Origin: Gallionella sp. | Lineage (GTDB): Bacteria > Pseudomonadota > Gammaproteobacteria > Burkholderiales > Gallionellaceae | Length of the DNA stretch: 64,000 nt | Direction of reading: 5' to 3' | Assembly: GCA_030645535.1 (NCBI GenBank) | Contig: JAUSNM010000016.1 | Span: forward strand, 1 to 64,000 | In this document: one piece after another, positions 15,557-58,017 of the stretch | Layout: each line of letters begins with the position of its first letter | Position numbering within the stretch: the first letter of the stretch is position 1 | The notes under the pieces: generated by a model | Database searches by the model: none | The model's input: the letters and a program-made list of their open reading frames with translations, nothing else | What the model was told of the DNA's origin: nothing | Translations under genes and position numbers: made by a program

Positions 15557-16456
15557 ATGACCACCACTGACCGCGCTGTCGCCGCCTATCTGGGTCTTGC
15601 CATCGGTGATGCGATGGGTGCGACGGTGGAATTCATGACGCCGCGTGAAATTGCGGCCAAGTATCGAATTCACGACACGCTGACAGGCGGCGGCTGGCTG
15701 CACCTCAAACCTGGACAAGTCACCGACGACACCACCATGTCGCTGGCGTTAGGCAGCTCGATACTTGCTCATGGCAGCGTGGATGCGCTCGCCGCAGCTC
15801 ATGCTTTCGATGCCTGGATGCGCGCCAAGCCGGTGGACATCGGTAACACCGTGCGGCGCAACCTGCTGCAATTTCGCAACACCGGCAATCCGGAGGCACC
15901 CTGTTCGGAACATGATGCGGGCAATGGCGCTTTGATGCGCGTGCTGCCTGTAGCATTAGCCACGCTCAATCATTCGGAAGATGCGATACGCGCCGCCTGC
16001 CGCGCACAGGGACATGTAACGCATAACAGCTCACTGTCGGACGCCGCCTGCGAAACCCTGGTGTTCATGATTCAGGACGCGCTTCTTGGCAGAGAAAAAA
16101 ATCACCTGCTGCATCAGCACGCCCACCCGCTTGTCACTCGCCATCCCGAATTCAAGTTCCGCGGGATACGCCCAAGCAGCAACCCAAGCGGATACGTGGT
16201 CGATACCGTGCAGGCCGTGTTTCAGGCTTTTTTCGATACTGACGATTTCCGTAGCTGTCTTGTCGACGTGGTCAATCGCGGCGGGGACGCGGATACCACC
16301 GGTGCGATTGCCAGCATGCTGGCCGGTGCGCTATACGGGCTGGAAGCGATACCCGATGTGTGGAGGAATACGCTGAATGCAGACATACGCCACTCGTGTG
16401 AGGCCCAGGCGCGGGCACTCATTCAACTGGCGGATGAATCAGCCAAAACGGCCTGA
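15557..16456 (+). CDS. draG: ADP-ribosyl-[dinitrogen reductase] hydrolase DraG
   Basis: A 299-residue ADP-ribosylglycohydrolase that removes ADP-ribose from an Arg of NifH (Arg101 here) and so reactivates nitrogenase. Metal-binding motifs are GLAIGDAMG at 13-21, VTDDTTMSLALG near 55-66 and NRGGDADTTGAI near 237-248. Length and order match DraG of Rhodospirillum and Azospirillum. The start follows GGAGGGAG, which belongs to the palindromic repeat upstream. The matching transferase draT is not seen in this window. A frameshifted copy of its 3' end lies at 29328-29527. Confidence 0.92.
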   Translation: MTTTDRAVAAYLGLAIGDAMGATVEFMTPREIAAKYRIHDTLTGGGWLHLKPGQVTDDTTMSLALGSSILAHGSVDALAAAHAFDAWMRAKPVDIGNTVRRNLLQFRNTGNPEAPCSEHDAGNGALMRVLPVALATLNHSEDAIRAACRAQGHVTHNSSLSDAACETLVFMIQDALLGREKNHLLHQHAHPLVTRHPEFKFRGIRPSSNPSGYVVDTVQAVFQAFFDTDDFRSCLVDVVNRGGDADTTGAIASMLAGALYGLEAIPDVWRNTLNADIRHSCEAQARALIQLADESAKTA

Positions 16457-16566
16457 GTATCAGAGCCCGCCCGATATTTGAGCAACTAACCGGCTGGTTT
16501 GTGAAGCAGACATGCAACCAGGCGTCCCTGCGTGCCCAAGGTCATTCCGCATATTTCATGCCTGAT

Positions 16567-17349
16567 TTACTCATGAAAGTATGGGAATTGCTTCAGTGAG
16601 CGAAAGAATTCCATGTCATGGTTGGGCCAAAGCTGAGCCTGTTCTTCCTTGGCCAGACGCTTTAGTTTTCGGATACTGTCCAGCGCCAGATCGTCACGGT
16701 CTTGCCAGCATAAACCGGGCGCTATCTCCTGCTGCAGATTCTCGGCAAGATCAGCTGCATCGCCACAAAGCAATATGGGTGAACCGTTGGGTAGCTCTAC
16801 CCACAATGACATGTGACCCGCCGTGTGTCCGGGCGTTGAGATGGCTCGCACCCCCGGCACCAGATCGTATTCGCCCAGTTTTACCTTCCACGGATAATCA
16901 CCGGAAAAATCGGCTGCGAAATAAGCTGCATCATTCCCCGTTCGCGCAGCTGCCAGCTCGTCGTGTTGCACGTGTACCTCCTTGCCGCACACATCACACA
17001 AGCCACCTGCATGATCGAAATGCAGATGACTCAGAAATACCACATCCACATCGGCCGTTGTCAGCCCCAATTTGGCAAGGTGATGCGGCAAGCGCTGCGG
17101 CTCCTGCATCTCGGGCGCGCCGAACGCGAAATTTTCCGGGTCGTAATACTGTGCGCGCCGGACCGGCTCGGCAATCTTGGCATAATCACAACCGACATCA
17201 AACAGTATGCGTCCGTTGGCAGTTTCGATCAGATAGGCCAGTATCGGCGCCTGAATAATCTGCCCTTGACCCCGGTTACGGGTTGAAAGCGATTTATCGT
17301 AACGGTGAGTGGCGGTCAGCAACGGCCATAAACGTAATGCCTGGGTCAT
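16567..17349 (-). CDS. MBL-fold metallo-hydrolase (AHL-lactonase-like family)
   Basis: A 260-residue metallo-beta-lactamase-fold hydrolase. The metal-binding motif HLHFDHAGG (HxHxDH) lies near residue 115, a second His in STPGHTAGHMS, Asp in CGDAAD and His in WPNHD. The overall pattern, including ILFDVGCD near the N-terminus, matches the N-acyl-homoserine-lactonase-like group, but many members act on other lactones or esters, so the substrate is not known. The start overlaps the EamA transporter stop (ATGA), so the two are translationally coupled at the end of the NtrC-type unit that begins at the binding-protein gene. Confidence 0.8.
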   Translation of the reverse strand: MTQALRLWPLLTATHRYDKSLSTRNRGQGQIIQAPILAYLIETANGRILFDVGCDYAKIAEPVRRAQYYDPENFAFGAPEMQEPQRLPHHLAKLGLTTADVDVVFLSHLHFDHAGGLCDVCGKEVHVQHDELAAARTGNDAAYFAADFSGDYPWKVKLGEYDLVPGVRAISTPGHTAGHMSLWVELPNGSPILLCGDAADLAENLQQEIAPGLCWQDRDDLALDSIRKLKRLAKEEQAQLWPNHDMEFFRSLKQFPYFHE

Positions 17350-18260
17350 GTGTTTTTCTCTTCAGCCGGAGATTCGCTACGCGCTTCGATCACGGCTGCC
17401 GACAGAATAAGCGCCCCCCCCACGGCCTCCTGCAAAGACAAGTGTTCTGTGCCGATCAGCACCGCAGAGAACACGCCCACCACCAATTCAGTCAACAGCA
17501 GGATGGCGGCACGTCCTGCATCAAGGCGAGCGACGCCGTAAAATGTGGCGAGCGTACCCGGTAACACCCATGCCAGTCCAAGTACTGCCAATGCCCACAG
17601 GTGCAGGGCATCAAGCGCAGGTATCGATTGCTCGTTCCAGGACATGAAGACTAGCGAAATCAGCGCGCACCCGGCGAATACCGCCACGGCTCTGATCAAT
17701 TCGGGCAGACCATGTCCGGCACGAATGGCGACGTTGTTGAGCGCAAATGCAAGGCCGGAAGAGAGCGCCAGCAAGTCGATGGATGAAAGAGGTGCGGCGA
17801 ATACCGCAGGGCCGCCCAGTGTCGCGAACAACCCGGCGAGTGCCAGCACCAATGCGATCAGGCGCAGCCGGGTAAATGCTTCGGCCAGGAAAATTCGCGC
17901 CGCGATGATGGTCCAGACCGGTGCAAGGTAGAACAGCAACATCACCCGCACCACGCTGCCTTCAGCCAGCGACGTGGCAAAGGATGCATTGGCCCAGCCG
18001 CCCAGCAGCGCGATGAGCAGCAGAAAACCGGTCTGACTGCGCCAACTGGACAGGCTGCGCCAGGCGAACGGCAACAGCACCAGTGCCGACAGACCGTAAG
18101 CGAAGAACTGCACAAAGCCGCTGTGGATACCCGCCGCATCGAGTGCTTTGAGCGGCCACCAGAATAGCCCCCACATCACTGAACCTGCGAGCAGTACCGG
18201 GATGGCTTTGCCTTTTTCAGGCTGGAGGGAAGTGGCGTGAATTGCCATAAAACGACTCAT
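17346..18260 (-). CDS. EamA/DMT family transporter
   Basis: A roughly 304-residue inner-membrane permease with ten hydrophobic segments in two EamA repeats (first from LLAGSVMWGLFWWPLKAL, second from ALSSGLAFALNNVAIRAG). Family members export metabolites such as amino acids; the substrate here cannot be read from sequence. Start is uncertain: ATGs at 18281, 18260 and 18248 are possible, and only a distant GGGAG precedes 18260. It lies 49 bases after the binding-protein gene and overlaps the metallo-hydrolase by 4 bases. Confidence 0.8.
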   Translation of the reverse strand: MSRFMAIHATSLQPEKGKAIPVLLAGSVMWGLFWWPLKALDAAGIHSGFVQFFAYGLSALVLLPFAWRSLSSWRSQTGFLLLIALLGGWANASFATSLAEGSVVRVMLLFYLAPVWTIIAARIFLAEAFTRLRLIALVLALAGLFATLGGPAVFAAPLSSIDLLALSSGLAFALNNVAIRAGHGLPELIRAVAVFAGCALISLVFMSWNEQSIPALDALHLWALAVLGLAWVLPGTLATFYGVARLDAGRAAILLLTELVVGVFSAVLIGTEHLSLQEAVGGALILSAAVIEARSESPAEEKNT

Positions 18261-18309
18261 GGTTAAATCGGTCTCCCGCATCAGATATCAGCAGGGGACC
18301 GATTTACGC

Positions 18310-19287
18310 TTATTTCGACAACGCCTTGACGAAGTGGTCATCTATCGTGGAAGGGATCGCCACGGCTTTCTTGATCTGGCCACTCTTCAGCAGGATTGCG
18401 TTGATGACATCTCCGCTGACGAAATAAGACTTGGTGTCCTTGCCCGGAGCGAATGGTTTTTGCATTTCCTTGAACGGAATGTTGTAAACCCCATTCAGTT
18501 GTTCAAGCACTTCTTTGCCTGACACACCGATGGCCTTGCCGATGATGGCGGCAGCCTCTTCAGGTTTCGCCTGCATGTACGCCAGACCATCCAGATAGGC
18601 CTTGATCAGACTGGTGATTTCTTTGCCATTCTTCTGGATATGCGCTGCATCGAATACCAGCACGTCGGCGATCAGGCCGGGCGCTTCTTTGGACGAATAG
18701 ATCACGTGGAATTTTTTGCCGCCGTCCATCGCCAATATTTGCGACACGTTGGGTTCATAGGTGACACCCACCGGAACCGCGCCGGATGCCATCGCAGAAG
18801 GAATCGCTTCCGGCGTCATATTCACAGGCGTGATGTCTTTATCGGTCATGCCGTTGCTCTTGAGTGCATATGAAATCAGAAAATCAGAAGGCGACAGCGG
18901 TGCGTAGGCCACCTTCTTGCCTTTCAGATCGCTGATTTTTGTAATGCCTTTGCCCGCCAGCACCGCATCGCCGCCGTTGGAATAGTCGATCGGCATCACC
19001 ACCTTGAAATCCTGCCCTTGGGCAACCGCACCGATCACCTGATCATAGGTCATCAATGCACCGTCAACGGCTTTGCTGGCAACGGCCGAAGGCAACATGG
19101 CAGGATCGGCAAAAGTTTGCAACGTTACTTTCAGATCGTATTTCTTGTACATATCCCGGCCTTCCGCCACGTAGAACGGGGCGTACCCGATCCAGGTAGT
19201 CAGACCCAGTTTGACCGGGGTCACAGCACAGGCTGAAAACGAAGCCGACAATAAAGCTACAGATGCGATAAGTTTTTTGATTTGCAT
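18310..19287 (-). CDS. ABC transporter substrate-binding protein, urea-carboxylase-region type
   Basis: A 325-residue periplasmic solute-binding protein of the NMT1/SsuA-like fold, with a Sec signal (MQIKKLIASVALLSASFSAC) and mature start VTPVKLGLTTWIGYAPFYVAEG. It is of the type encoded beside urea-carboxylase / guanidine-carboxylase clusters and is the natural partner of the permease and ATPase at 27220-28904, although here it is at the opposite end of the module. The start is set at 19287 by AAGGAG at good spacing. It has its own sigma-54 promoter and NtrC box, so it may be induced independently of the riboswitch. Confidence 0.85.
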   Translation of the reverse strand: MQIKKLIASVALLSASFSACAVTPVKLGLTTWIGYAPFYVAEGRDMYKKYDLKVTLQTFADPAMLPSAVASKAVDGALMTYDQVIGAVAQGQDFKVVMPIDYSNGGDAVLAGKGITKISDLKGKKVAYAPLSPSDFLISYALKSNGMTDKDITPVNMTPEAIPSAMASGAVPVGVTYEPNVSQILAMDGGKKFHVIYSSKEAPGLIADVLVFDAAHIQKNGKEITSLIKAYLDGLAYMQAKPEEAAAIIGKAIGVSGKEVLEQLNGVYNIPFKEMQKPFAPGKDTKSYFVSGDVINAILLKSGQIKKAVAIPSTIDDHFVKALSK

Positions 19288-19358
19288 TTTGCTACTCCTT
19301 GCTTGGGTTGATGAAAGTTGCATTGAAGCGGATTGCCCTTTACTACATTAAATCTATT

Positions 19359-19374
19359 AGCACATTACATGCCA
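19359..19374 (-). promoter_or_regulatory. Sigma-54 promoter of the binding-protein gene
   Basis: Minus-strand TGGCATG-TAAT-GTGCT has GG and GC in register with one mismatch in the -12 box. It lies about 72 bases upstream of the ATG at 19287. Confidence 0.7.
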
Positions 19375-19423
19375 ACCATATGGCATGCGGCTTTACACGG
19401 TATCCGTACTGTGTGAACCATCG

Positions 19424-19437
19424 TGAAGCTCGCTTCA
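19424..19437. repeat. 14-base inverted repeat next to the NtrC box
   Basis: TGAAGCT-CGCTTCA is a near-perfect palindrome directly abutting the NtrC box at 19438. It could be a second regulator's operator; no regulator is assigned. Confidence 0.45.
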
Positions 19438-19454
19438 TGCACCCGATTGGTGCA
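19438..19454. promoter_or_regulatory. NtrC binding site
   Basis: TGCACC-CGATT-GGTGCA is a perfect 17-base NtrC palindrome. It is 64-80 bases upstream of the -24 element at 19369-19374, a normal enhancer distance. Confidence 0.85.
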
Positions 19455-19492
19455 ACAAATGAACGTGTGCACTGCGTGTCGGTCATCGTGTT

Positions 19493-20338
19493 TCAAGGCG
19501 CGACGCGCCAATCCTGAAAGTGCAATTTTTCGGTTTTGCCCATCCATGAATTGATCTCCCACAAATCGGCGACCGGTTGATTTGTGAACGGCAGGGTATG
19601 CAGATAACCATCCGGGCCGAACTCGGGTGTCATGGTGGTGACTGAATATCCTTTTTTTTGTTGCATCGACCAGATCGCTTCCCAGCAGCGCTGGTGGGAT
19701 GCCAGTGCAGCTGCATATTCGGGGGCTGCGGGATGCGGCACTTGCGGTCCCTGGTCGTAACCGACGCGGGCGTGAATGTGCTGAGCATGTCGTGCCACTT
19801 CGAGCACCACCTCCCAGTCCTCATCCAGTTGCCGCTCCATCACCACCACCCAGTGACTGAAATCACAGGTAAGGCGCAGCTCCGGCAGTCGTTCCAGAAT
19901 TGCGAGCGTCGTCCACGGATTGAACAGCGAACGGCTGCGGTGCGTCTCGAAGCTGCAGGTGATGTTCATGCGTGCCGCAACTTCCTGCGCCTCACTGAAA
20001 AAGCGCACGCTTTGCTCCAGCGACCACGCATCGCAACCGCCGATAATGGTCACCGAGCGTGGTTCAAGGTGCTGTCCCAGCTGCAACTGACGCGCGACAT
20101 CGGCGATATGTTCTTCCACGCTGGCATGACGACGCGGCACATAACCGCCTGCCGTCACGATTTCCTGTATGTATTCCAGCCGCCGTGTCTGCAAGGCTTG
20201 CAACAGTTCATCGCGATACGTCTGGCTGCCGGCGGCCCCTCCTTCCAGCCCGGCAAAACCGGCCCCGACCGCCTGATCTGCCGCCAGGGCGATTGAACCC
20301 GTCCAGCCCCACAGGGTTTTAAAAAGCTTAAGTTTCAT
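19493..20338 (-). CDS. TIM-barrel sugar-phosphate isomerase/epimerase-like protein
   Basis: A 281-residue protein of the xylose-isomerase-like TIM-barrel superfamily. Metal-site features include SFETHRSRSLFNPWT (Glu in the barrel), LTCDFSHWVVV (Asp/His) and HIHARVGYDQGPQVP (His/Arg), with a closing MTPEFGPDGY (Glu). The true substrate is unknown; it is the last gene of the guanidine operon, starting 1 base after the allophanate hydrolase stop. The longer reading frame runs back into that gene; MKLKLFKTLWGW at 20338 is the sensible start. No role in guanidine breakdown is established. Confidence 0.78.
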   Translation of the reverse strand: MKLKLFKTLWGWTGSIALAADQAVGAGFAGLEGGAAGSQTYRDELLQALQTRRLEYIQEIVTAGGYVPRRHASVEEHIADVARQLQLGQHLEPRSVTIIGGCDAWSLEQSVRFFSEAQEVAARMNITCSFETHRSRSLFNPWTTLAILERLPELRLTCDFSHWVVVMERQLDEDWEVVLEVARHAQHIHARVGYDQGPQVPHPAAPEYAAALASHQRCWEAIWSMQQKKGYSVTTMTPEFGPDGYLHTLPFTNQPVADLWEINSWMGKTEKLHFQDWRVAP

Positions 20339-20339
20339 T

Positions 20340-22103
20340 TTATCTGCCGCCTTGTAGATAGGCGCGCCAGCCGCCGAAACAGCTAATATCCACCGCGTCC
20401 TTGACTGCATATGGCTCACAGACGAAGCCCTGAACCTGCGCGCCCTCAGCCAGCGTGAGGGTGCCGATTCCCAGCGGAGCAGGAATGCCCGCAACGAAGG
20501 AGCCGAATTCCCGTGCCGCCATCTCCCATACTTCCACGTCGATGGCGCTGCCACGCTGATCCGCCTGCACTCGCACCATGCCGGGCCGTTGAGGCCGGCC
20601 GCCGGGCAGTGCGTACAGCTTGTAATCCGCAGAGCTTTTGGTACGCGCGACCAGATGTGCGCCCCGATCGGTGAGCTGATGATTGAGCGGCAGTCCTGCC
20701 ATATGGGCACCGCAGACCGCAATGCGAACGCGTCCGGCAAGTAATTCTTGTGCAGAAGAAACTTTCTCGCCGCCCAGCAATCGGTCGGCCAAATGCAGCA
20801 ACGGCAGATCCTGATGCGCAGGTGCTGCCAGCGTGATGCCAAAGGGCAGACCGTCATTCTGAAAGCCAGCCGGCACGGCAACGGCGGCGCAATCGAGCAA
20901 ATTCATGAAATTGGTGTAATAGCCCAGATTCGCGTTCAGCCGGATCGGGTCAGCCAGCATTTCCTCGATGCGATAAATGGTGCCTGCTGTCGGCGTGACC
21001 AGACAATCGATGCTGTCCCAGACCATATCGGCTTCACGGCGCAATGCTTCCAGTTGGTACATGCCATTGAAGGCATCTGCCGCCGAAAATCTTTTTGCAC
21101 CAGAGATGATCTCACGCACTACCGGATGGATCGCTTCAGACCGTGCATCGAAAAAATCCGTAATCGCGGCATAGCGTTCCGCAAGCCACGGTCCTTCGTA
21201 TAACAATCTTGCTGCATTTAGATAAGCGGTGAAATCAATTTCAACGGCAACACCGCCTATCGCACGCAGCGCATCGCAACTGCGCCTGAACAATTCGGCT
21301 GCCTGCTGATTGCCGAAGAACTGAAGCTGTTCGGCTGTCGGCACACCGAATCGAAAAGCTTCGGCACGACCGAAATCAAAGCCGTACGTATGCATCTGGC
21401 GCGAATAGGCATCCTGATTATCCAGAGCTGCTGCCACCGACAATACGCTGGACGCGTCCGCTGTATTCCGGGCAAAGATGGATACGCAATCCAGCGAGCG
21501 GCAGGCGGGCAGCACACCGTGTGTGGAAACCCATCCGCGCGTCGGCTTTACACCGACCAGATTGTTGAATGCGGCCGGCACGCGACCCGATCCTGCGGTA
21601 TCGGTACCCAGACTGAAACTCACTTGCCCCAATGCCACCGCGACCGCCGAGCCGGAACTTGATCCGCCCGAAATGTAGTCCGGATTATAGGCGTTGCGGC
21701 AGGCGCCATATGGCGAGCGTGTACCGTTCAGTCCGGTGGCGAACTGGTCGAGATTGGTCTTGCCGATCGGGATCGCACCTGCATCGATCAGGCGCTGCAC
21801 CACGGTGGCGTGCCGTTCCGGATGATAGGCATACTCCGGACAGCCTGCCGTGGTTGGCGCACCCGCCAGGTCGATGTTGTCCTTAATGGCGAACGGTATA
21901 CCGTACAGCGGCAAGTCGGCCGGGTCTTTGTCCTGTATTGCGAGCACGTACTTTTCTATCTCATCCAGTGGCAGACGATGTATCCAGACACGATGGGGAT
22001 CGTCACCGATACAGCTGAGAATCTCCTCCATCACATCCAGCGGATGCAGTTTGCCCGTCAGGTATTGCTGGCGTAACGAATTGATGTCTAGACTGAAGTT
22101 CAT
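20340..22103 (-). CDS. atzF: Allophanate hydrolase
   Basis: A 587-residue amidase-signature enzyme that splits allophanate to ammonia and CO2. The Ser-Ser-Lys triad is visible: Lys in GIPFAIKDNIDLAG, Ser in SGGSSSGSAVAVA and the nucleophile Ser in TDTAGSGRVPAA. The C-terminal third is the second allophanate-hydrolase domain (VAGIPAPLGIGTLTLAEG). The start at 22103 overlaps nothing upstream, 8 bases after the carboxylase stop. It performs the last step of the guanidine or urea carboxylase route in this operon. Confidence 0.92.
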   Translation of the reverse strand: MNFSLDINSLRQQYLTGKLHPLDVMEEILSCIGDDPHRVWIHRLPLDEIEKYVLAIQDKDPADLPLYGIPFAIKDNIDLAGAPTTAGCPEYAYHPERHATVVQRLIDAGAIPIGKTNLDQFATGLNGTRSPYGACRNAYNPDYISGGSSSGSAVAVALGQVSFSLGTDTAGSGRVPAAFNNLVGVKPTRGWVSTHGVLPACRSLDCVSIFARNTADASSVLSVAAALDNQDAYSRQMHTYGFDFGRAEAFRFGVPTAEQLQFFGNQQAAELFRRSCDALRAIGGVAVEIDFTAYLNAARLLYEGPWLAERYAAITDFFDARSEAIHPVVREIISGAKRFSAADAFNGMYQLEALRREADMVWDSIDCLVTPTAGTIYRIEEMLADPIRLNANLGYYTNFMNLLDCAAVAVPAGFQNDGLPFGITLAAPAHQDLPLLHLADRLLGGEKVSSAQELLAGRVRIAVCGAHMAGLPLNHQLTDRGAHLVARTKSSADYKLYALPGGRPQRPGMVRVQADQRGSAIDVEVWEMAAREFGSFVAGIPAPLGIGTLTLAEGAQVQGFVCEPYAVKDAVDISCFGGWRAYLQGGR

Positions 22104-22110
22104 GTTGTTC

Positions 22111-25100
22111 TCACGCCTCGCTCCGGATGACCAGCAGATCCTGGCCTGCGGCGACCTGTCCGCCCGTGCGGCAATACAACTGCACAATCTCGCCGTCACA
22201 GGGTGACACTACCGCGATTTCCATCTTCATCGATTCAATGATCACCAGCGCATCGCCGGCCTTGACCTTGCTGCCAACCTGCACCGGAATATTCCAAACG
22301 TTCCCTGCGACATGCGCGGCGACGGCACGGCTACCCGGCGGCAGATCAAGCTCGCTGTCGGTACCTGCTTCAGACACGGTGGTGTCCGTCGCGTACTCTG
22401 CCTGACCGTTGGCTTTCCACATCTCGCGTTCTGCCGCGAAGGCGGCGCGCTGATTGCTGCGGAACGCGCTGATCGCTTCGTCGTTGGTTTGCAGGTACTG
22501 GTTATATTCCTTCAGGCTGAACGTCGTCTCTTCGATCTTGAGTTGGAAGCGACCGGCAACAAAGTCTTCGCGCATCTTGAGCAGTTCATGCTCCGACACC
22601 GGGTAGAAACGAATCTGATCGAAGAAGCGCAGCAACCACGGTTTCCCTTGTTGAAAATCAGCCGTCTGTTTGTAACGGTTCCACATCTGTACGGTGCGGC
22701 CGACGAACTGGTAACCGCCGGGGCCTTCCATGCCGTACACGCACATATAGGCCCCGCCGATACCGACGGCATTCTCCGGCGTCCAGGTGCGCGCCGGATT
22801 GTATTTGGTGGTCACCAGACGATGACGCGGATCAAGCGGCGTGGCTACCGGCGCGCCGAGATAGACGTCCCCCAGGCCCATCACCAGATAGCTGGCATCA
22901 AACACGATGTGTTTGACCGTTTCGATGTCGGCTATCCCATTGATGCGCCGGATGAACTCGATGTTGCTCGGACACCACGGTGCATCCTTGCGCACCGATT
23001 GCATGTATTTCTCGATCGCCAGCTTCGTCGACGGGTCATCCCAAGACAGCGGAAGGTGCACGATACGGGTCGGCACCTGCATGTCTTCGATGATCGGCAA
23101 CTGCGCTTCTGCTGCGATCAGTGTTTGCAGCAACCGTTCACGCGACAATACGCGGCCATCGAAATGAACCTGCAATGAACGCATGCCGGGTGTCAGATCG
23201 AGAATACCCGGCAATTTTCCATCGTCTATGGCCTGTTGCACCCATTGCATCAGCGCATGAACCCGGAAGCGCAAGTTCAAATCGAGTACCAGCGGGCCGT
23301 ATTCGATGAGCAGATTGCGGTCGCCGGATTGACGATAGACCACCTGAACCTGATCGCAGCTTTCCGGAATGCTGTGCACGATAGCGCTACCCATCGCATC
23401 AGCAATTGGCGTGTCGGCCACCGGAAAGTGACCGGGATTCTCGGGCAGGCGCAAATGCTCGATTGAAGCATCTTGCATTCGTTCCAGATGATTGGCCTGT
23501 TCCAGTGTCATACAACAAAAACGTATGCTGTCACCGGGCCGAAGTTGTCCCATTTTCCACAACTCGGCATGAACGATGGTCACCGGACAGACGAAGCCGC
23601 CCAGGCTTGGGCCATCAGGCCCCAGAATCACCGGCATGTCGCCGGTGAAATCCACCGCGCCGATCGCATAGGCGTTGTCGTGGATGTTGGACGGATGGAG
23701 TCCCGCCTCGCCGCCATCCTGCCGCGCCCATTCCGGCTTGGGGCCGATCAGGCGCACACCGGTGCGGCTGGAGTTGTAGTGCACTTCCCAGTCGGTGGCA
23801 AAGAACGTCTCGATATCGGCCGGCGTGAAAAAATCCGGTGCGCCATGCGGGCCGTACAGCACGCCGATCTCCCATTGCCTGGAGTAAGTCGGAATCAAAT
23901 CGCCGTGCAGGGTTTGTTCTGCGCCAGACACTGTGACTGCGCCCAGATGCAGCACATCGCCGGTACGCAAGGTACGTCCGCCGTGTCCGCCGAACTGTCC
24001 CAGCGTAAAGGTTGCTTTGCTGCCCAGATAATCCGGCACATCGAAGCCGCCAGATACTGCCAGATAGCTGCGGCAACCTCCGCCATCCACCGATCCCAGA
24101 CGCAGCACGCTGCCTGCCTTGACCGCATGACTATGCCAGAACGACAGAGGTTCGCCATCGAGTTCGGCCGACATCGCAGCCCCGGTCAATGCAATCACCG
24201 TGTCGGTATTGAAAAGCAAAGTCGGGCCTGAGACCGTCAGTTCAAGGCCTGCCGCATCCGCTGCATTACCCAGCAGGCGATTGCCCAGGCGGAAAGCCAG
24301 CGCATCCATCGGGCCTGACGGTGGTACACCGATGTTCCAGTAGCCTGTGCGTCCGGGGAAATCCTGTATTGTGCTTTGTACGCCAGGTTCGATCACATCG
24401 ATAGTGCTCGGATAATAATGAAAACCATTCAGATAGCGCGTGGTCTGCAAGCCATCGGCAAACACATAGTCACAAACGATTTGACGCAGATAGTCCAGAT
24501 TGCTCTCGATGCCGTCGACGCGGGTGTTGGCCAGCGCGTGACGCATCTTCTCCAGCGCCGCTTCCCGATTGTCAGCTTTCACGATAATCTTGGCGATCAT
24601 CGGATCGTAATAGGGCGGGATTTCGCTGCCGCGCTCCACCCAGGTCTCAATCCGCGCTTCTTTGGAGAACTCGACGCCACTCAGCACGCCGCTGGAGGGC
24701 TGGAAATTCTTGTTGGGGTCTTCCGCATACAGGCGCACCTGCATAGCCGCACCCACAGGCTCGACTTTCAATGACGCAAGTGACGGCAATTCTCCGGCCG
24801 CCTGCAGCAACATCCACTCGACCAGATCGACGCCGGTGACTTCTTCGGTGACGCCGTGTTCGACCTGCAATCGCGTATTCACTTCGAGGAAATAAAACTC
24901 GCCGTTGTTTGCATCGAACACGAATTCCACTGTACCCGCCGACTGGTACTGAACGGCTACACCCAAACGCACTGCGGTCGCCAGCAAGTGTTTTCGGACG
25001 GCGGGCGTCAGATTGGGCGCAGGCGTCTCTTCGATCACTTTCTGGTTGCGACGCTGCACTGAGCAATCGCGCTCACCCAGCTCGATCACGCAGCCACGGC

Positions 25101-25746
25101 CGTCACCGAACAGCTGCACCTCGATGTGGCGTGCGTGCTCGACATACTTTTCCAGATAGATGCCGGCATCCTTGAAGTTGGCGCGGGCAAGCCGATCCAC
25201 CGACTGAAAATCCTCGGCCAGTTCATCTGAACTCCAGCACAGACGCATGCCGATGCCGCCGCCGCCCGCCGTGCTTTTGATCATTACCGGATAGCCGATA
25301 CGTGCCGCCTCAGCGTGTGCGTGGCCTACATCGGAGAGCAGGCCGCTGCCCGGCAGCAAGGGTACACCATTTTGTTCAGCCAGCTCGCGTGCGGTGTGCT
25401 TCAGACCGAAACGGCGCATCTGATCCGGGGTCGGGCCGATGAACACCACGCCAGCATCAGCGCACTGCTCTGCAAATGAGGCATTTTCCGAAAGAAATCC
25501 ATAACCCGGATGGATCGCCTGTGCACCGGTTTCGAGCGCAACTTCGAGGATGCGTTCGCCGCGCAGATAACTCTCGGCGGCGGCCGCTGCACCGATGCAC
25601 ACAGCTTCATCCGCCATCTGCACATGCAGCGATTGCGCATCCGCTTCGGAATAAACCGCTACAGATTGAATGCCCATCCGCTTCAAGGTGCGGATGATGC
25701 GGCAGGCGATCACGCCGCGATTTGCTATCAAGACTTTATTAAACAT
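22111..25746 (-). CDS. Biotin-dependent guanidine/urea carboxylase
   Basis: A 1211-residue single-chain enzyme. N-terminal biotin carboxylase (to about residue 450: [17 protein letters not shown]-grasp [26 protein letters not shown]), then the carboxyltransferase pair (AHS2/AHS1-like, about 460-1100) and a C-terminal biotinyl domain with [10 protein letters not shown], biotin on Lys1174. Annotated families are called urea carboxylase. Because a guanidine-I riboswitch and two DUF1989 proteins accompany it, guanidine is the more likely substrate, giving carboxyguanidine. The residues that distinguish the two substrates were not resolved here. It ends 7 bases before atzF. Confidence 0.93.
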
Positions 25747-25810
25747 GGCTCACCCAATTCGCAGGTCGTCCTGCATCGTTGTCATACATCCGGCCGTCCG
25801 GACGCGATGG

Positions 25811-26461
25811 TTAATGGCTGACTGCATCCCAAACCAGCAGACGCACCGGCGTCGGGTTGTAGGCGTTGCACGGATTGTTCAGTTGCGGACAGTTGGAGAT
25901 CAGTACATACACGTCCATCTCCGCGCGCATCTCCACATACTTGCCGGGTGCAGAAATCCCGTCAGCAAAGGTCAATTCGCCCTGCGGAGTTACCGGCACG
26001 TTCATGAAGAAGTTCACATTGGCGGTCAGATCGCGCTTGTCCATGCCGCAATCACAATGTCCCAGCGCGTGCAGAAAACTGTCGCGGCAGCTATGCATAT
26101 ACTTCTTGTCGATGGCATAGCGCACGCTGTTGCTCTCCGCCGCACAGGCGCCACCCAAGGTGTCGTGACGTCCGCAGGTGTCGGCGACGATGGTCATCAG
26201 CACATTGCCTTCACTGGACATCAGACGCGTTCCCGCTGTCAGATACAAATTCGACTGCTCGCGTATGGTGTCCACCGCGCTGTAACGCTCTTCAGGGTTA
26301 CGCGCGTTGTAGAACAGCGTATCCACCGCCTGATTACCTTCCAGATCCAGAATGCGGAACAGCTGCCCGCGTTTCACTTCATGCAGCCAGGACTCACCGG
26401 CAGGCAGAACGAAGTCGTAGCTTGCCAGTTCGGGGGTCAGATTACTTTCAACGATAGCCAT
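25811..26461 (-). CDS. DUF1989 protein, urea-amidolyase-associated type 2 (carboxyguanidine deiminase subunit)
   Basis: A 216-residue DUF1989 protein. Landmarks: [60 protein letters not shown] with likely metal ligands Cys/His, and [16 protein letters not shown]. In guanidine-using bacteria the paired DUF1989 proteins form the carboxyguanidine deiminase that yields allophanate. It is 9 bases downstream of its partner and 64 bases before the carboxylase gene. The ATG is preceded by AAAGAGAG. Subunit naming (A or B) was not assigned. Confidence 0.87.
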
Positions 26462-26470
26462 GTTCTCTCT

Positions 26471-27199
26471 TTAACTGAATAACAACTCGGTATTGTGAAA
26501 ACCGCGCACATTTTCCGGGCGGTGGTTGCGGCAGTGGTCGTACACATCAGGTGTGCCGCACTGCCAGGCCTGAAGCAAAACGGGCTTGGGCGCGTACTGT
26601 GGATTCGGGTCAAGCGGATGCTGGCAGGCCGACACGACGACCAGCACGTTCATCTCGAAGCGCAGCTCGACGAAATTACCCGCCCTTGAATGATGGCTCT
26701 GATAGTGCAGACCGCCCGCTTCGTCCGCACTCACCTTGCTGAAGAAATTCACATTCGGCACGATGTCGCGTCGGCCCATCCCCCACTTGCCGAGCTCAAT
26801 GATCATGCTGTCCGTCGCATTGCGGTGCATGGCATTGCGGGCTTGCTGGTAAGTGGCTGTGCCATATTTTTTCTCCACCATTGCCGCGTTAGTCATGCCG
26901 CAGATCGTATCGTGCCAGCCGCAACTATCCTCGATGACGGAGGCCAGCACGCGCCCCATGTCGGAATAGCACACGAAGCCACGGCTCAGATGCGCGGTAT
27001 GCTGCGCTTTGAGCGTATCCGCCATGTTGTAGCGCTCCAGTTTCTCTTGCCTGTTGTAAAACAACGTGGACAAATTTGCGCCGCCTTCCACATCAGTGAT
27101 GCGCAGTGCAGTCCCGCGCTTCATCGAAAATGACCAGTGTGCGCCGCCGGGGATGGTCTCCTCCCACAGTATGTTCAGTTCAGATAGTTTTTCAGTCAT
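26471..27199 (-). CDS. DUF1989 protein, urea-amidolyase-associated type 1 (carboxyguanidine deiminase subunit)
   Basis: A 242-residue DUF1989 protein, partner of the gene that follows. Visible motifs: IPGGAHWSFSMKRGTALRI, EGGANLSTLFYNRQEKLERY, IEDSCGWHDTICGMTN (Cys/His pair as in its partner) and NVNFFSKVSADEAGGL. The start at 27199 is preceded by GAAAGGAA; a start eight codons earlier has no support. Together the two are expected to deiminate carboxyguanidine to allophanate. It lies 20 bases after the transporter ATPase in the riboswitch-controlled operon. Confidence 0.87.
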   Translation of the reverse strand: MTEKLSELNILWEETIPGGAHWSFSMKRGTALRITDVEGGANLSTLFYNRQEKLERYNMADTLKAQHTAHLSRGFVCYSDMGRVLASVIEDSCGWHDTICGMTNAAMVEKKYGTATYQQARNAMHRNATDSMIIELGKWGMGRRDIVPNVNFFSKVSADEAGGLHYQSHHSRAGNFVELRFEMNVLVVVSACQHPLDPNPQYAPKPVLLQAWQCGTPDVYDHCRNHRPENVRGFHNTELLFS

Positions 27200-27219
27200 G
27201 GCATTCCTTTCATTGCATA

Positions 27220-28059
27220 TCATTGATCGGCTTCAGCCTGTCGGGTCATCCGCTCCAGCAGTTCCAGATCGGTGTGCATACCAGCGGTCTCGCGGATACG
27301 GGTCAGGATGGCTTTTTTCTGTTGCACGAACTCCGGCGAGAGTTTCATGTCCTGATTGCGTTGCGCCGGCAGAACAACCTGACAGATGCTGTCGATACGT
27401 CCGGGGCGCGGCGCCATCACGACCACGCGCTGACCGAGATAGATCGCTTCTTCCACATCATGCGTGACGAACACGATGGTGGTCTTCTCAAGTTTGGATA
27501 CATGCAGGATCATGTCGTGCATCACTTCGCGCGTCTGGGCATCCAGTGCGCCGAATGGTTCGTCCATCAGCAGTATCTGCGGACGGGGCAGCAGCGCACG
27601 TGCAATGGCAACACGCTGCTGCATACCGCCGGATAACTGATTGGGATAGGCATCCCGAACATGGTTCAATCCCATCAGATCAATTAAAGCATCCGCCCGG
27701 CCTGAGGCTGTTTCGACATCCGCAGAGGTGATGTCTTCGCGATTGATTTGCAGCAGACGAGTAAATTTGATGTTGTCTATCACCGACAGCCACGGATACA
27801 GGCTGTAGTGCTGGAACACCATAGCGCGATCGACTCCTGGCCCGCTGACAGGCACCCCGTCCACGTTGATACTGCCGGAGGATAGCGTCTCCAGTCCGCC
27901 GATACAGCGCAACAGCGTGGATTTGCCGCAGCCCGATGCACCGACGAAAGTCACGAATTCATTGCTGCCAATGGCAAGGTTTACATCCTGCAAGGCTATG
28001 ATATTGCCATCGCCGAATGTCTTGCCTGCAGATTCAATACTGATCTTGGTATTCATCAT
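27220..28059 (-). CDS. ABC transporter ATP-binding protein (guanidine/urea-region)
   Basis: A 279-residue nitrate/sulfonate/taurine-type ABC ATPase. Walker A GASGCGKST, Q-loop VFQHYSLYPWL, signature LSGGMQQR, Walker B ILLMDEPFGALD and switch His in FVTHDVEEA are intact. It powers the permease encoded just upstream and would work with the binding protein at 18310-19287. Two adjacent ATGs (28059, 28056) are possible; AGGG lies 8 bases upstream. It starts 5 bases after the permease stop, inside the guanidine operon. Confidence 0.9.
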   Translation of the reverse strand: MMNTKISIESAGKTFGDGNIIALQDVNLAIGSNEFVTFVGASGCGKSTLLRCIGGLETLSSGSINVDGVPVSGPGVDRAMVFQHYSLYPWLSVIDNIKFTRLLQINREDITSADVETASGRADALIDLMGLNHVRDAYPNQLSGGMQQRVAIARALLPRPQILLMDEPFGALDAQTREVMHDMILHVSKLEKTTIVFVTHDVEEAIYLGQRVVVMAPRPGRIDSICQVVLPAQRNQDMKLSPEFVQQKKAILTRIRETAGMHTDLELLERMTRQAEADQ

Positions 28060-28064
28060 GTGCC

Positions 28065-28904
28065 CTATTTTTTGTACAACCAGGGAAAATTCTTGCGATG
28101 CAGCCAGCGGAACAGCTGGTCGATCGCCAATCCGATGAGTCCGATCAGAATGATCCCGGCGAAGATTTTGTCGGTCTGCATGAAGCGTTGTGCCCTGAGA
28201 ATGGCGTAGCCCAACCCTGAATTCGCAGCAACCAGTTCGGCTACCACCAAATAGGTCCAAGCCCAACCCATGGTGACCCGCAGGGTGTCGAGCAAGGCCG
28301 GTTTCGCGGAAGGAATGATGACCAGCGAGACGATTTCGCTGCGAGTCGCACCCATGGTTTGGGCCGCTTCGATTTGCGTGATGGGAACCCGGCGGACATC
28401 TTCGGCGATCATCAAGACCATCTGAAAGAAGGTGCCGATGAAGATGATGGCGATCTTGGAACTTTCATCGATGCCGACCCACAACATGACCAGCGGAATG
28501 AAGGCCACCGCCGGCATATAGCGGATGAAATCGGTCAAGGGTTCGAGCAGCGCCTGCACCGGACGGTATGAGCCGATCATGATGCCCAGCGGAATGGCGA
28601 GTATGGCCGACAAGGAAAACCCGGCTGCGACCCGGTAGGTACTGATCCACATGTCGCCGAGCAGATCGTCATCTTTGAACCAGGTATATAGCCGTAACAG
28701 CACGTCAATCGGGCCGGGCATGAATACCTTGTCCATCAGGCCGCTCGCGGATAACCACCACCATGCAGCAAGCGGCAGCAACATGCCAGTCAGGGCGAAC
28801 AACAGATAGATACGAGGGCTCAGATGTCCGCGTATCACCCAAAAGGCACTCCATCCGCTGATGACACTTTGGTAAAGTGATGGGCGAGTGTTGTCAGTGG
28901 ACAT
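28065..28904 (-). CDS. ABC transporter permease (guanidine/urea-region)
   Basis: A 279-residue inner-membrane permease of the SsuC/TauC type with about six hydrophobic segments and the ATPase-contact loop EAAQTMGATRSEIVSLVIIPSAKP. First coding gene after the riboswitch. The start at 28904 (MSTDNTRP) is preceded by CGAGGTGCC; the open frame continues upstream through the riboswitch but is not coding. It probably imports guanidine, inferred from the riboswitch and downstream enzymes, not from the protein itself. Confidence 0.88.
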   Translation of the reverse strand: MSTDNTRPSLYQSVISGWSAFWVIRGHLSPRIYLLFALTGMLLPLAAWWWLSASGLMDKVFMPGPIDVLLRLYTWFKDDDLLGDMWISTYRVAAGFSLSAILAIPLGIMIGSYRPVQALLEPLTDFIRYMPAVAFIPLVMLWVGIDESSKIAIIFIGTFFQMVLMIAEDVRRVPITQIEAAQTMGATRSEIVSLVIIPSAKPALLDTLRVTMGWAWTYLVVAELVAANSGLGYAILRAQRFMQTDKIFAGIILIGLIGLAIDQLFRWLHRKNFPWLYKK

Positions 28905-28995
28905 TTGGCACCTCGTTAAAGTTTGCCAGGCACATGTCCGTTGTTGGCAGTGCGAGCAATTGTTTTGACGACATAATTCGACTCCTGAAATGAAA

Positions 28996-29135
28996 TAGCC
29001 CGAGAGGGTGCCAATGAACTGGTCACAACCTCCCGGGCTTTTATCCCTCCGTGAAGTCTTGTCATCGACAAGACCGAGAACTCTCGGACCAGACACCACC
29101 AATCTTTAATTGACAGTCGGAACCCTAGTTCTTCT
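28996..29135 (-). promoter_or_regulatory. Guanidine-I (ykkC) riboswitch
   Basis: On the minus strand the hallmark blocks appear in order: CTAGGGTTCCG near 29132, CTGGTCCGAGAGTT, then ACGGAGGGATAAAAGCCCGG, as in the ykkC guanidine-I aptamer. The 3' block AGCCCGGGAGG can also pair with CCTCTCGGGCT at 28997-29007, giving a switchable stem just before the permease gene. Guanidine binding would release expression of the downstream transporter and enzymes. Confidence 0.93.
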
Positions 29136-29177
29136 GCAAGTGGCCAATCAACGGATCGACACCCTCATTGCAATCAA

Positions 29178-29193
29178 AGCATAAAGTATGCCA
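29178..29193 (-). promoter_or_regulatory. Sigma-54 promoter of the guanidine operon
   Basis: Minus-strand TGGCATA-CTTT-ATGCT has GG and GC in register with one mismatch in TTGC. Predicted start is about 35 bases before the riboswitch aptamer. Confidence 0.6.
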
Positions 29194-29256
29194 TGGCTGA
29201 TAAAGCCTTATCTGCCGACTTTATTGGCATGTACTTATCAGCAAATGTTTAACAGA

Positions 29257-29304
29257 TGTCCATAAAAAGTGCAGCGCATCTTGCTGATGCACCAAAATTG
29301 GGCG
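29257..29304. promoter_or_regulatory. Two imperfect NtrC-like sites
   Basis: TGTCCA-TAAAA-AGTGCA (29257-29273) and TGCACC-AAAAT-TGGGCG (29288-29304) each have one good NtrC half-site. They are about 64 to 110 bases upstream of the -24 element, where an enhancer is expected. Weak evidence. Confidence 0.35.
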
Positions 29305-29327
29305 AAGCGAAATGCAAGCGGAGGAGA

Positions 29328-29527
29328 GTCAATCGTGCACAACGTGTTGGCGATGCCGACAACACCGGCACCATTGCAGGCATGCTGTCCGGTGCGCTAT
29401 ACGGGCTGGAAGCGATATCTGATGCGTGGAGGAATACGCTGATGCAGGCATCCGCCGCTCGTGTGAGACCCCGGCGCGGGCATTGATTCAACTGGCGGGC
29501 AAATTACCCAAAAAAGCTGTGACCTGA
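29328..29527 (+). pseudogene. Truncated, frameshifted draG 3' remnant
   Basis: This stretch matches the last 190 or so bases of draG (16270-16456). A run of about 29 identical bases around GTGCGCTATACGGGCTGG lies in the middle, and the same stop context CCTGAGTATC ends both. Encoded residues GDADNTGTIAGMLSGALYG and DAWRNTL parallel the DraG C-terminus. One A is missing near 29441 (CTGATGCAG against CTGAATGCAG); restoring it continues the DraG frame to the stop. The 5' two-thirds of the gene is absent. Confidence 0.85.
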
Positions 29528-29624: not shown

Positions 29625-31676
29625 TCAAATCCGGAAATGGCTGACGGATTGATCAAGCGCACTGGAGAGGGTTTCAAGATTTCCCACCGTGCCAAAGACA
29701 TCCCTGATGGCCTCGCTGTTCTCGCCCGACATCCGGGCGACTCTTTCAACATTATCGGCAATCTCGCGGCTCGCCAAACTTTGTTCCCTGATGGACGAAG
29801 AAATATCCTCGACACCGCTTAGCACACGGGACACGCCCTCGTTGATTTTCACAATGGCGCCACCGGCCTGCTCAGCCTGCACAGAACCCGCCTTGACCAT
29901 CTCGACGGTCGCCACCATTTCCGCAATGGCATTACTTGTGCTGCCGCGTATTTCGTCAACCATACCGGCAATCTCCTGGGTCGAACGAGCGGTTTTTTCC
30001 GCAAGCTTGCGTACTTCATCCGCAACCACGGCGAAACCACGCCCCTGCTCTCCTGCGCGCGCCGCCTCAATCGCCGCATTGAGCGCAAGCAGGTTGGTCT
30101 GATCGGCGATTTCCTTGATCACTTTGACCACATTCTGTATCTGATCTGATTGTTCACCCAAATTCCGCATCGTTTGTGCCGTGTTCAACACGGCCTGATT
30201 GGTTTTTGACATATCATCAACGACCTGCCGCACAATCTTGCCCCCCTCGGCGGCCAGCGAAGTCGAGTTGTCCGAAACGCGCCTGACCTCCCCGGCATTC
30301 TCCGCAATCTGGTCTATGCTTGCAGTCATTTTCTCAACGGCAATCGACATGGAATTAGCCGCTGCCGACTGAGATTGCGAGCCTTCCGCCACTTTCGTCA
30401 TCGCCTCCGACAAATGTCTTGCCCGGTTGTCGATATGCCCCGATACCGAAGAAATCTGATCGATGATAGAACCCAGCAACACCTTGGTCGACTGGACGGA
30501 ACAAAGCACCTCCCCCATTTCATCACGACCTGAAATATCAACTTGCCCCGACATCTGACCGTTGATAAGCTCACTCAGGTGTTGCTTGATTTCATCGACA
30601 GGTCTGACGACAAAACGGCGAACGATCAACCTGATAAAAAAGAATAACACCAGCTGAAACGCAAGCTGGATGAGAATCTGCTCGACGATTACCTTATTAA
30701 GATCATCATAAAAACCACCGCTCAAATCGATCTGAATGTCAGATACCCCATTCACACTGCCATCCTCCACCTGATGACAACTCAAACAATCCGTGCCGTG
30801 AAAATCACGACTGACCATATAGGGCGTCACCGCACGGAAGATCGGCTTGCCATCCCGATTCTCAAGCGCGTAATAAGGCTTTTTGCTCGCAATAACACTG
30901 CGTTGCAGCTCATCCTGAATCTGCTCTTCCGGCAGCCCCGGACCAAACTGTTTGACGACATGCTCGGTGCGCATTAAACGCAGCGCGACAATATTTCCCG
31001 AATCGGAAATTTTATTCATCAGCAGTTGTCGCGTATTGACATCGCTGATCTGCCCTGTGACCATCAGCATGTTTGCGCTGTCTATAATCTCGTTGGCGAC
31101 CCCTTGGGCACGTCGTTGCGCCGAATCGAACATACTTGCCTTGTTATCGTTGACGATGGAAAAACTTCCGACGCTCAACATCAACAACAGGGCCGGCTGG
31201 ATTAAAAGTTGCAGCTTGGTTTGCAGTGTGAGATTCCGGAAGCGCCTGAACAGAGGGAGTTTCGCTGAAGGTACTCTGCCTGATTTATACAGTGCTTCCG
31301 CAGCAGCAACCTCAGCACGAGTCGGTTTCTTCCTGAGAGAAATATATCCGGTAACAACACCCCGGTCCGTAATTGGCGACACGGTGGCGCGCACCCAGTA
31401 ATGGTCGCCACTCTTGGCACGGTTCTTTACGATACCGCGCCAGGGATGACCGCTTTCAACTGTCTCCCACAAGCTTTTGAATGCCCACTCAGGCATATCC
31501 GGGTGACGGACAAGATTGTGATTTTTACCCAGCAACTCTTCGCGGGAAAATCCGCTGATCTGCACGAAAGAATCATTCACGTAGGTAATGCCCCCTCTGG
31601 TGTCGGTCTTGGTGACAAAGACCTGGCTTTCTGCATAATCAACTTCATGCTGCGTTATGGGCAAATTATTTTTCAT
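29625..31676 (-). CDS. PAS / c-type-haem methyl-accepting chemotaxis protein (Aer-like)
   Basis: A 683-residue chemoreceptor. Residues 1-120 are an Aer-like PAS domain ([10 protein letters not shown], typical of FAD-binding aerotaxis PAS). A first membrane helix lies near 155-178, then a periplasmic domain of about 150 residues containing CLSCHQ near residue 296, a CxxCH covalent haem site. A second helix lies near 332-352, followed by a cytoplasmic signalling domain with the conserved tip [19 protein letters not shown]. It probably senses redox or oxygen on both sides of the membrane. It starts 13 bases after nifM and so is likely the last gene of the nifU operon. Confidence 0.9.
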
Positions 31677-57099: not shown

Positions 57100-58017
57100 A
57101 TGGGAATAACGGATCTTTTTTCAAAACGCCAGCGTCGCCTTCGCGGCGAAATTCCAGACGTTTATGTTTATGACGCATTCCCTAATCAGCTCAAGGTTCA
57201 AGTTGTGCATGTCATTCGCGATGCACTTGGTGTAGATCGTTATGGAAGCAGCCACGCATCACAGGTGTACGAATATATAAACAATACCCTTTGTCGCGAA
57301 TATGGACTTTTCGAGCTTACTAAGCACCCTCGCTCTCTTGATGAATCTATTTTTAAGTTTTTCTTAGCCGAAGAGTCTGTGGATAAATCTCTCGATGTGG
57401 TAGAACTATGCTTCTGGGCAATCGACACCTATGTCAGGAGCCATTACCCACACAATAGCGGCGCAAAAATTCGACCTGATGACGCAATTTCGGAACTGAA
57501 TGCCAGGTTCAAGGAACATGCAGTCGGATTTCAATTTGAGTCATCAGAGTTAATTCGAGTCGATTCACAATTTATTCATTCAGAAGCTGTCATACCAGCA
57601 CTTGCAATCCTTCGCAATGAACAATACAAAGGGGCAAATGAAGAATTCCTAAAAGCTCATGAGCATTATCGCCATGGTCGGTACAAAGAATGTCTCGTGG
57701 ATTCGCTTAAGGCATTTGAAAGTACAATGAAGACAATATGCACAAATCGGGGTTGGCCAACGCAACCAACTGATACGGCCAAAACTCTGATTAATATTTG
57801 CCTGAGCAATGGGTTATTACCGACCTATCTCGAATCGCAAATGGGCTCGCTCCGGTCACTACTCGAAAGTGGTTTGCCAACAGTTAGAAACAAACTTGGT
57901 GGTCATGGACAAGGCTCTGATCCTGTTGCCGTGCCAGACTACTTCGCACGCTATGCACTGAACCTGACTGCAAGCAGCATACTTCTTATGGCCGAGGCTG
58001 ATGCAGAAAAAAAGTGA
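57100..58017 (+). CDS. STM4504/CBY_0614 family protein
   Basis: A 305-residue protein beginning MGITDLFSKRQRRLRGEIPDVY, the hallmark start of the STM4504/CBY_0614 family. The C-terminal third (HYRHGRYKECLVDSLKAFESTMKTI, in parts, and VRNKLGGHGQG) resembles abortive-infection C-terminal / HEPN-type domains, where R-x4-6-H-type motifs occur; here RNKLGGH. Function is unproven; a defence role is possible from that resemblance. It is AT-richer than its neighbours, the only plus-strand gene between modA and nifH, and has no nif-type promoter. Confidence 0.75.
   Translation: MGITDLFSKRQRRLRGEIPDVYVYDAFPNQLKVQVVHVIRDALGVDRYGSSHASQVYEYINNTLCREYGLFELTKHPRSLDESIFKFFLAEESVDKSLDVVELCFWAIDTYVRSHYPHNSGAKIRPDDAISELNARFKEHAVGFQFESSELIRVDSQFIHSEAVIPALAILRNEQYKGANEEFLKAHEHYRHGRYKECLVDSLKAFESTMKTICTNRGWPTQPTDTAKTLINICLSNGLLPTYLESQMGSLRSLLESGLPTVRNKLGGHGQGSDPVAVPDYFARYALNLTASSILLMAEADAEKK

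Follow-up and report, generated by a model that had tools for sequence, protein, structure and literature searches.

The window analysed here comprises the first 64,000 nucleotides of contig JAUSNM010000016.1 (assembly GCA_030645535.1) of Gallionella sp., an iron-oxidising bacterium of the family Gallionellaceae. On its minus strand lies a run of genes that, together with its regulatory sites, spans positions 16567-29304 (Table 1). Promoter-like motifs and a guanidine-I riboswitch aptamer are followed by the permease and ATPase of an ATP-binding cassette (ABC) importer, the DUF1989 proteins CgdB and CgdA, a carboxylase and an allophanate hydrolase, and the run ends with genes for a TIM-barrel protein, a substrate-binding protein (SBP), an EamA-family transporter and a metallo-beta-lactamase-fold (MBL) hydrolase. 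Situated between draG and nifM, apparently by insertion, the core of the run is very probably an operon that assimilates guanidine by the known carboxylase route. An earlier sequence-only reading of the window had placed a guanidine-I riboswitch ahead of a transporter, two DUF1989 proteins, the carboxylase and the hydrolase, and this arrangement is borne out by matches that pass curated cut-offs. The extent that it gave the operon holds for the core genes and fails at the 3' end, which it set at 20340; the run continues to 16567, and an internal guanidine-II element had been missed.

Table 1. Genes and predicted regulatory features of the guanidine locus and its edges, in window coordinates.
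Feature	Position	Strand	Basis or remark
NtrC-like dyad CGCCCAATTTTGGTGCA	29288..29304	-	8/10 consensus letters
sigma-54-type -24/-12 site TGGCATACTTTATGCT (GG-N10-GC)	29178..29193	-	9/12 letters; nearly same place in Gallionellaceae relatives
guanidine-I riboswitch aptamer (RF00442)	29028..29139	-	84.9 bits, cut-off 63
terminator-like hairpin	28997..29039	-	overlaps aptamer 3' end, then weak U tract; fold, coordinates counted by hand
ABC permease (BPD_transp_1)	28065..28904	-	start ATG 28904; family search
ABC ATPase	27220..28059	-	family search
CgdB / UAAP1, DUF1989	26471..27223	-	TIGR03425, 360.7 bits, cut-off 206
CgdA / UAAP2, DUF1989	25811..26461	-	TIGR03424, 343.9 bits, cut-off 285
guanidine-II (mini-ykkC) element, two ACGR-loop hairpins	25761..25805	-	between cgdA and carboxylase gene; 31.7 bits
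predicted guanidine carboxylase	22111..25746	-	TIGR02712, 1929.5 bits, cut-off 1304
allophanate hydrolase, amidase and AH_C domains	20340..22103	-	TIGR02713, 813 bits, cut-off 511
TIM-barrel protein (AP_endonuc_2)	19493..20338	-	begins one base past allophanate hydrolase stop
SBP, accessory type	18310..19323	-	49-76% identity to SBPs of accessory loci
EamA-family transporter	17346..18281	-	family search
MBL hydrolase, AiiA-like	16567..17349	-	start overlaps EamA stop
draG	15557..16456	+	left edge of inserted block
decayed copy of draG 3' end	29349..29513	+	right edge of inserted block; 84% to 16283-16448

Operons of the guanidine carboxylase pathway under guanidine-I/II riboswitches have been described in Raoultella, Klebsiella and Vreelandella boliviensis (PMC12186494, PMC11410670, PMC12508155). 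The window shares with them the same enzymes, elements of both riboswitch classes (guanidine-II marginally below its cut-off) and ABC importer genes at the head, and with V. boliviensis a two-riboswitch layout in which guanidine-II directly precedes the carboxylase gene (PMC12508155). The core operon is thus a known system, of which the window provides an example from the Gallionellaceae. The window differs from the known operons in that the SBP has moved to the 3' part, that TIM, EamA and MBL genes have been added, and that the whole lies inside a nif island. The head of the operon is without an SBP gene, and the sole SBP of the run stands near its 3' end; permease and ATPase genes thus lie at one end, and an SBP of another subtype at the other.

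Guanidine or urea as substrate

Family labels would assign the operon to urea breakdown, as TIGR02712 is named urea carboxylase and CgdA and CgdB are named urea amidolyase associated proteins. The enzyme also shares its domain order with the urea carboxylase/urea amidolyase of K. lactis (PDB 3va7, 5i8i), which provides its best PDB sequence matches; it departs from that enzyme in having Asp for Asn at position 1330, in the separation of the hydrolase as a distinct protein, and in the presence of CgdAB. The first of these differences bears directly on specificity, as Asp at K. lactis position 1330 denotes guanidine and Asn urea, with Asp at 1584 required (PMC11410670, PMC12186494). In an alignment with PDB 5i8i, Asp699 of the window carboxylase stands opposite K. 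lactis Asn1330, such that the mark of a urea carboxylase is absent, and Asp960, in a GLGD motif and numbered by hand count, stands opposite 1584. The biotin motif is intact (ESMKM near 1173). CgdA and CgdB of the window, the predicted subunits of a carboxyguanidine deiminase, are assigned by the TIGR03424 and TIGR03425 cut-offs, as against the published tree-based definition. The alignment of substrate-pocket residues that had been proposed as a check on the sequence-only reading points to a guanidine-type enzyme.

Related loci from named genomes follow the same division. Among 80 such loci (designated by L numbers, with genomes designated by G numbers), the residue at the 1330 position is Asp in 73, Asn in six (L048, L058, L068, L074, L080, L081) and Cys in one (L039), and a match to CgdA or CgdB is present in 67 of the Asp loci, as compared to none of those with Asn. 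The Asp loci lacking a match are L038, L047, L056, L061, L067 and L075, the last five of which are short or cut at the carboxylase; the Asn locus L048 is likewise a short contig. The L039 carboxylase has Cys at the Asp/Asn specificity position, yet CgdA and CgdB lie downstream of it. The assignment of the window operon to guanidine rather than urea is supported by Asp699, by the presence of both CgdA and CgdB, and by riboswitch elements from two guanidine classes, of which guanidine-II scores marginally below its threshold; kinetics and RNA binding are predicted to match, and a urea-degrading operon is highly improbable. The sequence-only reading had also preferred guanidine in spite of the urea carboxylase label.

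Riboswitch elements, promoter and probable nitrogen control

The RF00442 match is the only Rfam gathering-level match in the window and the only match to that family in the draft genome. A terminator-like hairpin at the 3' end of the aptamer is also kept, by eye, in L106, L107 and L108. The guanidine-II element was found by an Rfam search at a relaxed threshold; at the same place it is above the cut-off in L106, L107, L110, L111 and L113, and both ACGR hairpins were recognised by eye in 13 of 15 relatives compared, with L123 and L124 lacking the spacer. Between the riboswitch and the permease gene there is also a 26-codon open reading frame (about 28974-28895, minus strand), the stop of which overlaps the permease start; its start and end are kept in L107 and L108, its middle is not.

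Upstream of the aptamer lie the sigma-54-type site and the NtrC-like dyad. NtrC acts with sigma-54 in answering nitrogen starvation, and the consensus sequences of sigma-54, NtrC and NifA (TGT-N10-ACA) served to score leaders of related loci. The 142 bases preceding each of 70 distinct guanidine-I aptamers, from 65 sources, were scored for GG-N10-GC sites. A site with at least 9 of 12 letters was found in 63 leaders, and one with at least 10 in 56; the leader of L053 (Pseudoduganella namucuonensis) has all 12. For 55 of those 63 leaders, 58-83 bases separate the start of the site from the aptamer core. Control segments reach 9/12 far less often, at 4.8% for random segments of the same loci (14,000 draws) and 13 of 343 for segments at fixed offsets. 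The seven leaders without such a site belong to five loci, namely L029 and L036 from cyanobacteria (L036 twice), L055 from Sulfuricurvum (twice), L050 and L071. NtrC-like dyads of at least 9/10 occur in 23 of 69 loci, as compared to 0.7% of shuffles, and dyads of at least 8/10 in 51 of 69, a score that about 11% of shuffled upstream regions reach. A second draw, of 227 genomes from across the class, gave 17 distinct parsed leaders, 15 of which carry a sigma-54-type site; one of these 15 (L162) has a site sequence equal to that of L073 in the first set. Among the leaders of this draw that head cgdB, L165 has a site and L163 and L151 do not; the guanidine-I element of L163 lies 7 kb downstream of another in the same genome, and may be internal.

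NifA-type sites do not show this pattern. No exact match to TGT-N10-ACA occurs at 25.9-30.1 kb of the window, a region that extends some 0.9 kb beyond the promoter-like site on its upstream side, nor are such sites enriched in related leaders (3 loci versus 4.3 expected). Because NifA-type sites are not enriched, and because relatives keep the sigma-54-type site with the operon far from nif, control by NtrC rather than by the nif system is favoured, and NtrC/sigma-54 control of the operon is likely. Sigma-54-type sites before guanidine-I aptamers, combined with the role of NtrC and sigma-54 in nitrogen starvation, suggest a two-input gate in which the operon would be expressed when the cell is nitrogen-starved and guanidine is present. 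In PMC12186494, PMC12508155, PMC8390497 and PMC11410670, NtrC and RpoN go unmentioned and sigma occurs only as the name of a supplier or of software; the proposal may have been published elsewhere.

Under such a scheme, nitrogen shortage would lead NtrC and sigma-54 to start transcription at about 29.17 kb, and guanidine bound to the nascent guanidine-I aptamer would keep the 3' strand of the aptamer from the terminator-like hairpin, allowing transcription to continue. The guanidine-II element would then open translation of the carboxylase. Guanidine would be imported by the ABC permease and ATPase with the distal SBP, carboxylated at the expense of ATP by the biotin-dependent enzyme, and deiminated by CgdAB to allophanate and one ammonia, after which hydrolysis of allophanate would release two more ammonia and CO2. 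The predicted yield of three ammonia per guanidine, anticipated by the sequence-only reading, agrees with the published pathway.

Several observations weigh against this account or parts of it. The permease and ATPase have no classical SBP gene beside them, such that their pairing with the distal SBP is inferred, and a second SBP-like gene elsewhere in the genome (G000:C10), with 28% identity to the classical SBP, could serve instead. The U tract behind the terminator-like hairpin is weak, and the guanidine-II match falls 0.3 bits below its cut-off (31.7 versus 32), with both loops present. The window's sigma-54-type site scores only 9/12, which 2% of shuffles reach, and its NtrC-like site only 8/10, weak evidence on its own; the 70 leaders are moreover mutually related, and 63 of 70 do not amount to 63 independent events. 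Finally, L038 has Asp at the specificity position but, in 19.8 kb of DNA, no CgdA or CgdB match.

Position among the nif genes

As the sequence-only reading had recognised, the operon lies amid nif genes, which occupy both sides on one contig: nifB, nifQ and draG on the left and nifM, V, S, U, N, E, K and D on the right, with Rnf genes likewise among the flanking genes. In the window draG and nifM are 15.2 kb apart. In six of 15 nif-bearing relatives (G060, G018, G078, G068, G148 and G124; loci L098-L101, L104 and L105) the two genes stand tail to tail, 0.1-3.7 kb apart, without the block, the nifM of G068 being a fragment. In three others they share a contig at greater distances (about 19 kb in G123, 22 kb in G154 and 106 kb in G011), and the draG-nifM interval therefore varies, DNA other than the block having also come to lie in it. 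The remaining six have draG and nifM on different contigs, or no clear nifM (G142). To judge by G123 and G154, insertions may recur in this interval.

The edges of the block point to its origin. Over positions 16563-29325 the window resembles the L107 guanidine locus at the DNA level, with a gap at 19316-19508, and the decayed draG end at the right edge is 84% identical to the window's own draG, as compared to 61-75% for the draG of eight relatives. This remnant is best read as the scar of an insertion that duplicated the draG end. It also bears on whether the junction is an assembly chimera that places the operon falsely in the nif island. The genome is a draft of 116 contigs with an estimated completeness of 86.6%, and the block has a fairly high tetranucleotide distance (0.169, exceeded by 3 of 18 other segments); a chimera is nevertheless very unlikely, in that two false joins would be needed to leave nif genes on both sides of one contig, and the right-edge draG end is closest to the window's own gene.

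Linkage to nif is real but, in everything sampled, is seen only here. Where both systems share a contig in Gallionellaceae genomes, guanidine-I and nifD are separated by about 0.67, 0.79 and 0.82 Mb (G011, G123 and G154), and at the level of the order carboxylase and nifD are 0.79-1.16 Mb apart (G313, G335 and G377); the remaining genomes with both systems have the guanidine genes and nifD on different contigs. Within up to 10 kb on each side of the 80 named loci, nif neighbours, counted without the regulators NifL and NifA, amount to two weak matches, a NifS at 23% in L041 and a NifM fragment in L069. Co-occurrence was also counted in whole genomes, in statistics that ignore kinship. Among 158 genomes of the family, 20 have guanidine-I, 43 have nifD and 11 have both (p 0.006); among the 94 good genomes the numbers are 14, 29 and 7 (p 0.12); and among 349 genomes of the order, 50 have the carboxylase, 51 have nifD and 13 have both (odds ratio 2.4, p 0.03). 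These associations are weak.

The placement had been taken to suggest a combined strategy of guanidine scavenging and nitrogen fixation. A selected, co-regulated nitrogen island would fit the physical embedding, the sigma-54-type sites before both gene sets, and the excess of joint occurrence in the family, but it is unlikely in view of a placement seen in this genome alone among those sampled, block boundaries and a draG scar that indicate insertion, the large separations elsewhere, the lack of a NifA-type site before the operon, and the lack of any enrichment of such sites in related leaders. The location looks like a lineage-specific insertion; because it is seen only here, bears an insertion scar, and gives way to separations of 0.67-1.16 Mb in other genomes, it shows no combined strategy. 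The sigma-54-type promoter suggests an independent, and better, reason than location to expect a response to nitrogen starvation.

Other features of the region may be recorded. Sigma-54-like sites with one mismatch occur in the nif region at 6057, 12154, 38288, 38489, 48443 and 53752, several with TGT-N10-ACA nearby upstream. Directly upstream of the operon, at 29625-31676 on the minus strand, lies a gene for a methyl-accepting chemotaxis protein with a NifL-like PAS domain, a relative of which (50%) is found near the guanidine operon of G017 (L108) in the opposite relative orientation. A protein with AbiJ N-terminal domain 4 and DUF7014 (Pfam), possibly a phage-defence gene, is encoded at 57100-58017 on the plus strand, between a TOBE-domain ABC ATPase (modC-like) and nifK, and a SagB-family peptide dehydrogenase-like protein at 40518-42053 on the minus strand, between nifU and nifN.

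The accessory module and a possible origin of guanidine

The order from permease to MBL gene recurs in nine of 20 stretches from 19 other Gallionellaceae genomes, the MBL gene being cut by the stretch end in three of the nine (L109, L122 and L124). L108 and L110 lack MBL alone, and the other stretches have a different transporter arrangement or are cut at contig ends. Seven of the nine full-order stretches carry a fatty-acid-desaturase-like gene between SBP and EamA, and five an isochorismatase-like gene. The window, L106 and L107 have neither, and the module in the window is partial, as the desaturase-like gene is missing both from the run and from matches in the draft genome. The TIM-barrel gene of G124 (L112, 14914-15739) is disrupted, falling into two frames. 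Outside the Gallionellaceae, module runs include desaturase-like (PF00487), creatininase-like (PF02633) and isochorismatase-like (PF00857) proteins, and Thiomicrorhabdus arctica (L070) has MBL, TIM, EamA and desaturase-like genes near its carboxylase gene. In several Proteobacteria (L007-L010, L012, L078 and others) the guanidine operon also encodes, beside the ABC transporter, a type III glutamine synthetase and a member of the creatininase family, frequently together with a NikR-like regulator.

The accessory genes could be hitch-hikers unrelated to guanidine, encoding for instance a quorum-quenching lactonase or a sugar isomerase. The MBL protein is AiiA-like, although it falls below the NCBIfam equivalog cut-off for the AHL lactonase AiiA (141.7 versus 375 bits). 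All ligands of its metal site (HxHxDH / H / D / H) are present and do not vary among 22 aligned proteins, which is evidence for a metal site and not for a substrate; the invariant residues of the TIM barrel are E131, D159, H162, H187 and E239. The distribution of the genes makes hitch-hiking rather doubtful. Of the 349 order genomes, 19 have a close MBL homologue (E 1e-70 or better), and 18 of these also have the carboxylase (p 5e-16; the exception, G433, has a completeness of 89%); ten have a TIM homologue (E 1e-40 or better), all with the carboxylase (p 2e-9); kinship inflates these p values, and the genomes with MBL span nine families. Six of ten related accessory runs that lie apart from carboxylase genes are headed by their own guanidine-I riboswitch, and guanidine-II precedes the module of L018.

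These riboswitches invite comparison with the ykkC subtype 2d RNAs, of unknown ligand, that lie upstream of EamA/TauE transporters (PMC7266159). The likeness consists in EamA transporters under a ykkC-type RNA. A difference is that the aptamers of the accessory loci, whose class is assigned by model score, reach 70.8-98 bits against the guanidine-I model and preserve the 45 columns that are invariant among 19 aligned aptamers (L145 lies outside the alignment). Deviating aptamers are those of L142 and L143, with A for G in GUCCGAGAG, and of L131, with A for the near-invariant G102.

Additional genes within a guanidine-riboswitch operon have a precedent in V. boliviensis, where MgdH and MgdL release guanidine from methylguanidine (PMC12508155). 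The window has no room for such a dioxygenase and lyase between the carboxylase and hydrolase genes, the former ending at 22111 and the latter starting at 22103. Its accessory families differ from MgdH/MgdL, and related loci carry a desaturase-like protein or, in L040, L042 and L140 an oxygenase-like one that resembles, by eye and with no family search, 2-OG/Fe(II) oxygenases.

A tentative reading is that the distal TIM-barrel, EamA and MBL proteins form an accessory module that releases guanidine from a substituted guanidine, or handles one. In a fuller and equally tentative form, a second guanidine-riboswitch regulon would be attached to the carboxylase operon, contributing SBP, EamA, MBL and TIM here and, in relatives, also a desaturase-like oxygenase, creatininase-like and isochorismatase-like amidohydrolases, and short-chain dehydrogenases (by eye); in several genomes it stands behind a guanidine-I or guanidine-II element of its own. 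This regulon might take up an alkyl-, sugar- or cyclitol-guanidine, act on it by oxidation and hydrolysis, and supply the carboxylase with free guanidine; NtrC/sigma-54 and guanidine would gate both regulons.

A sigma-54/NtrC-type promoter combined with a guanidine riboswitch across many Proteobacteria would, if true, provide a two-input gate that explains when guanidine serves as a nitrogen source. The accessory enzymes recur with guanidine riboswitches, and in several genomes under them, and have no substrate yet assigned. The field has yet to settle where guanidine comes from in nature (PMC12186494), and these enzymes point to a possible origin.

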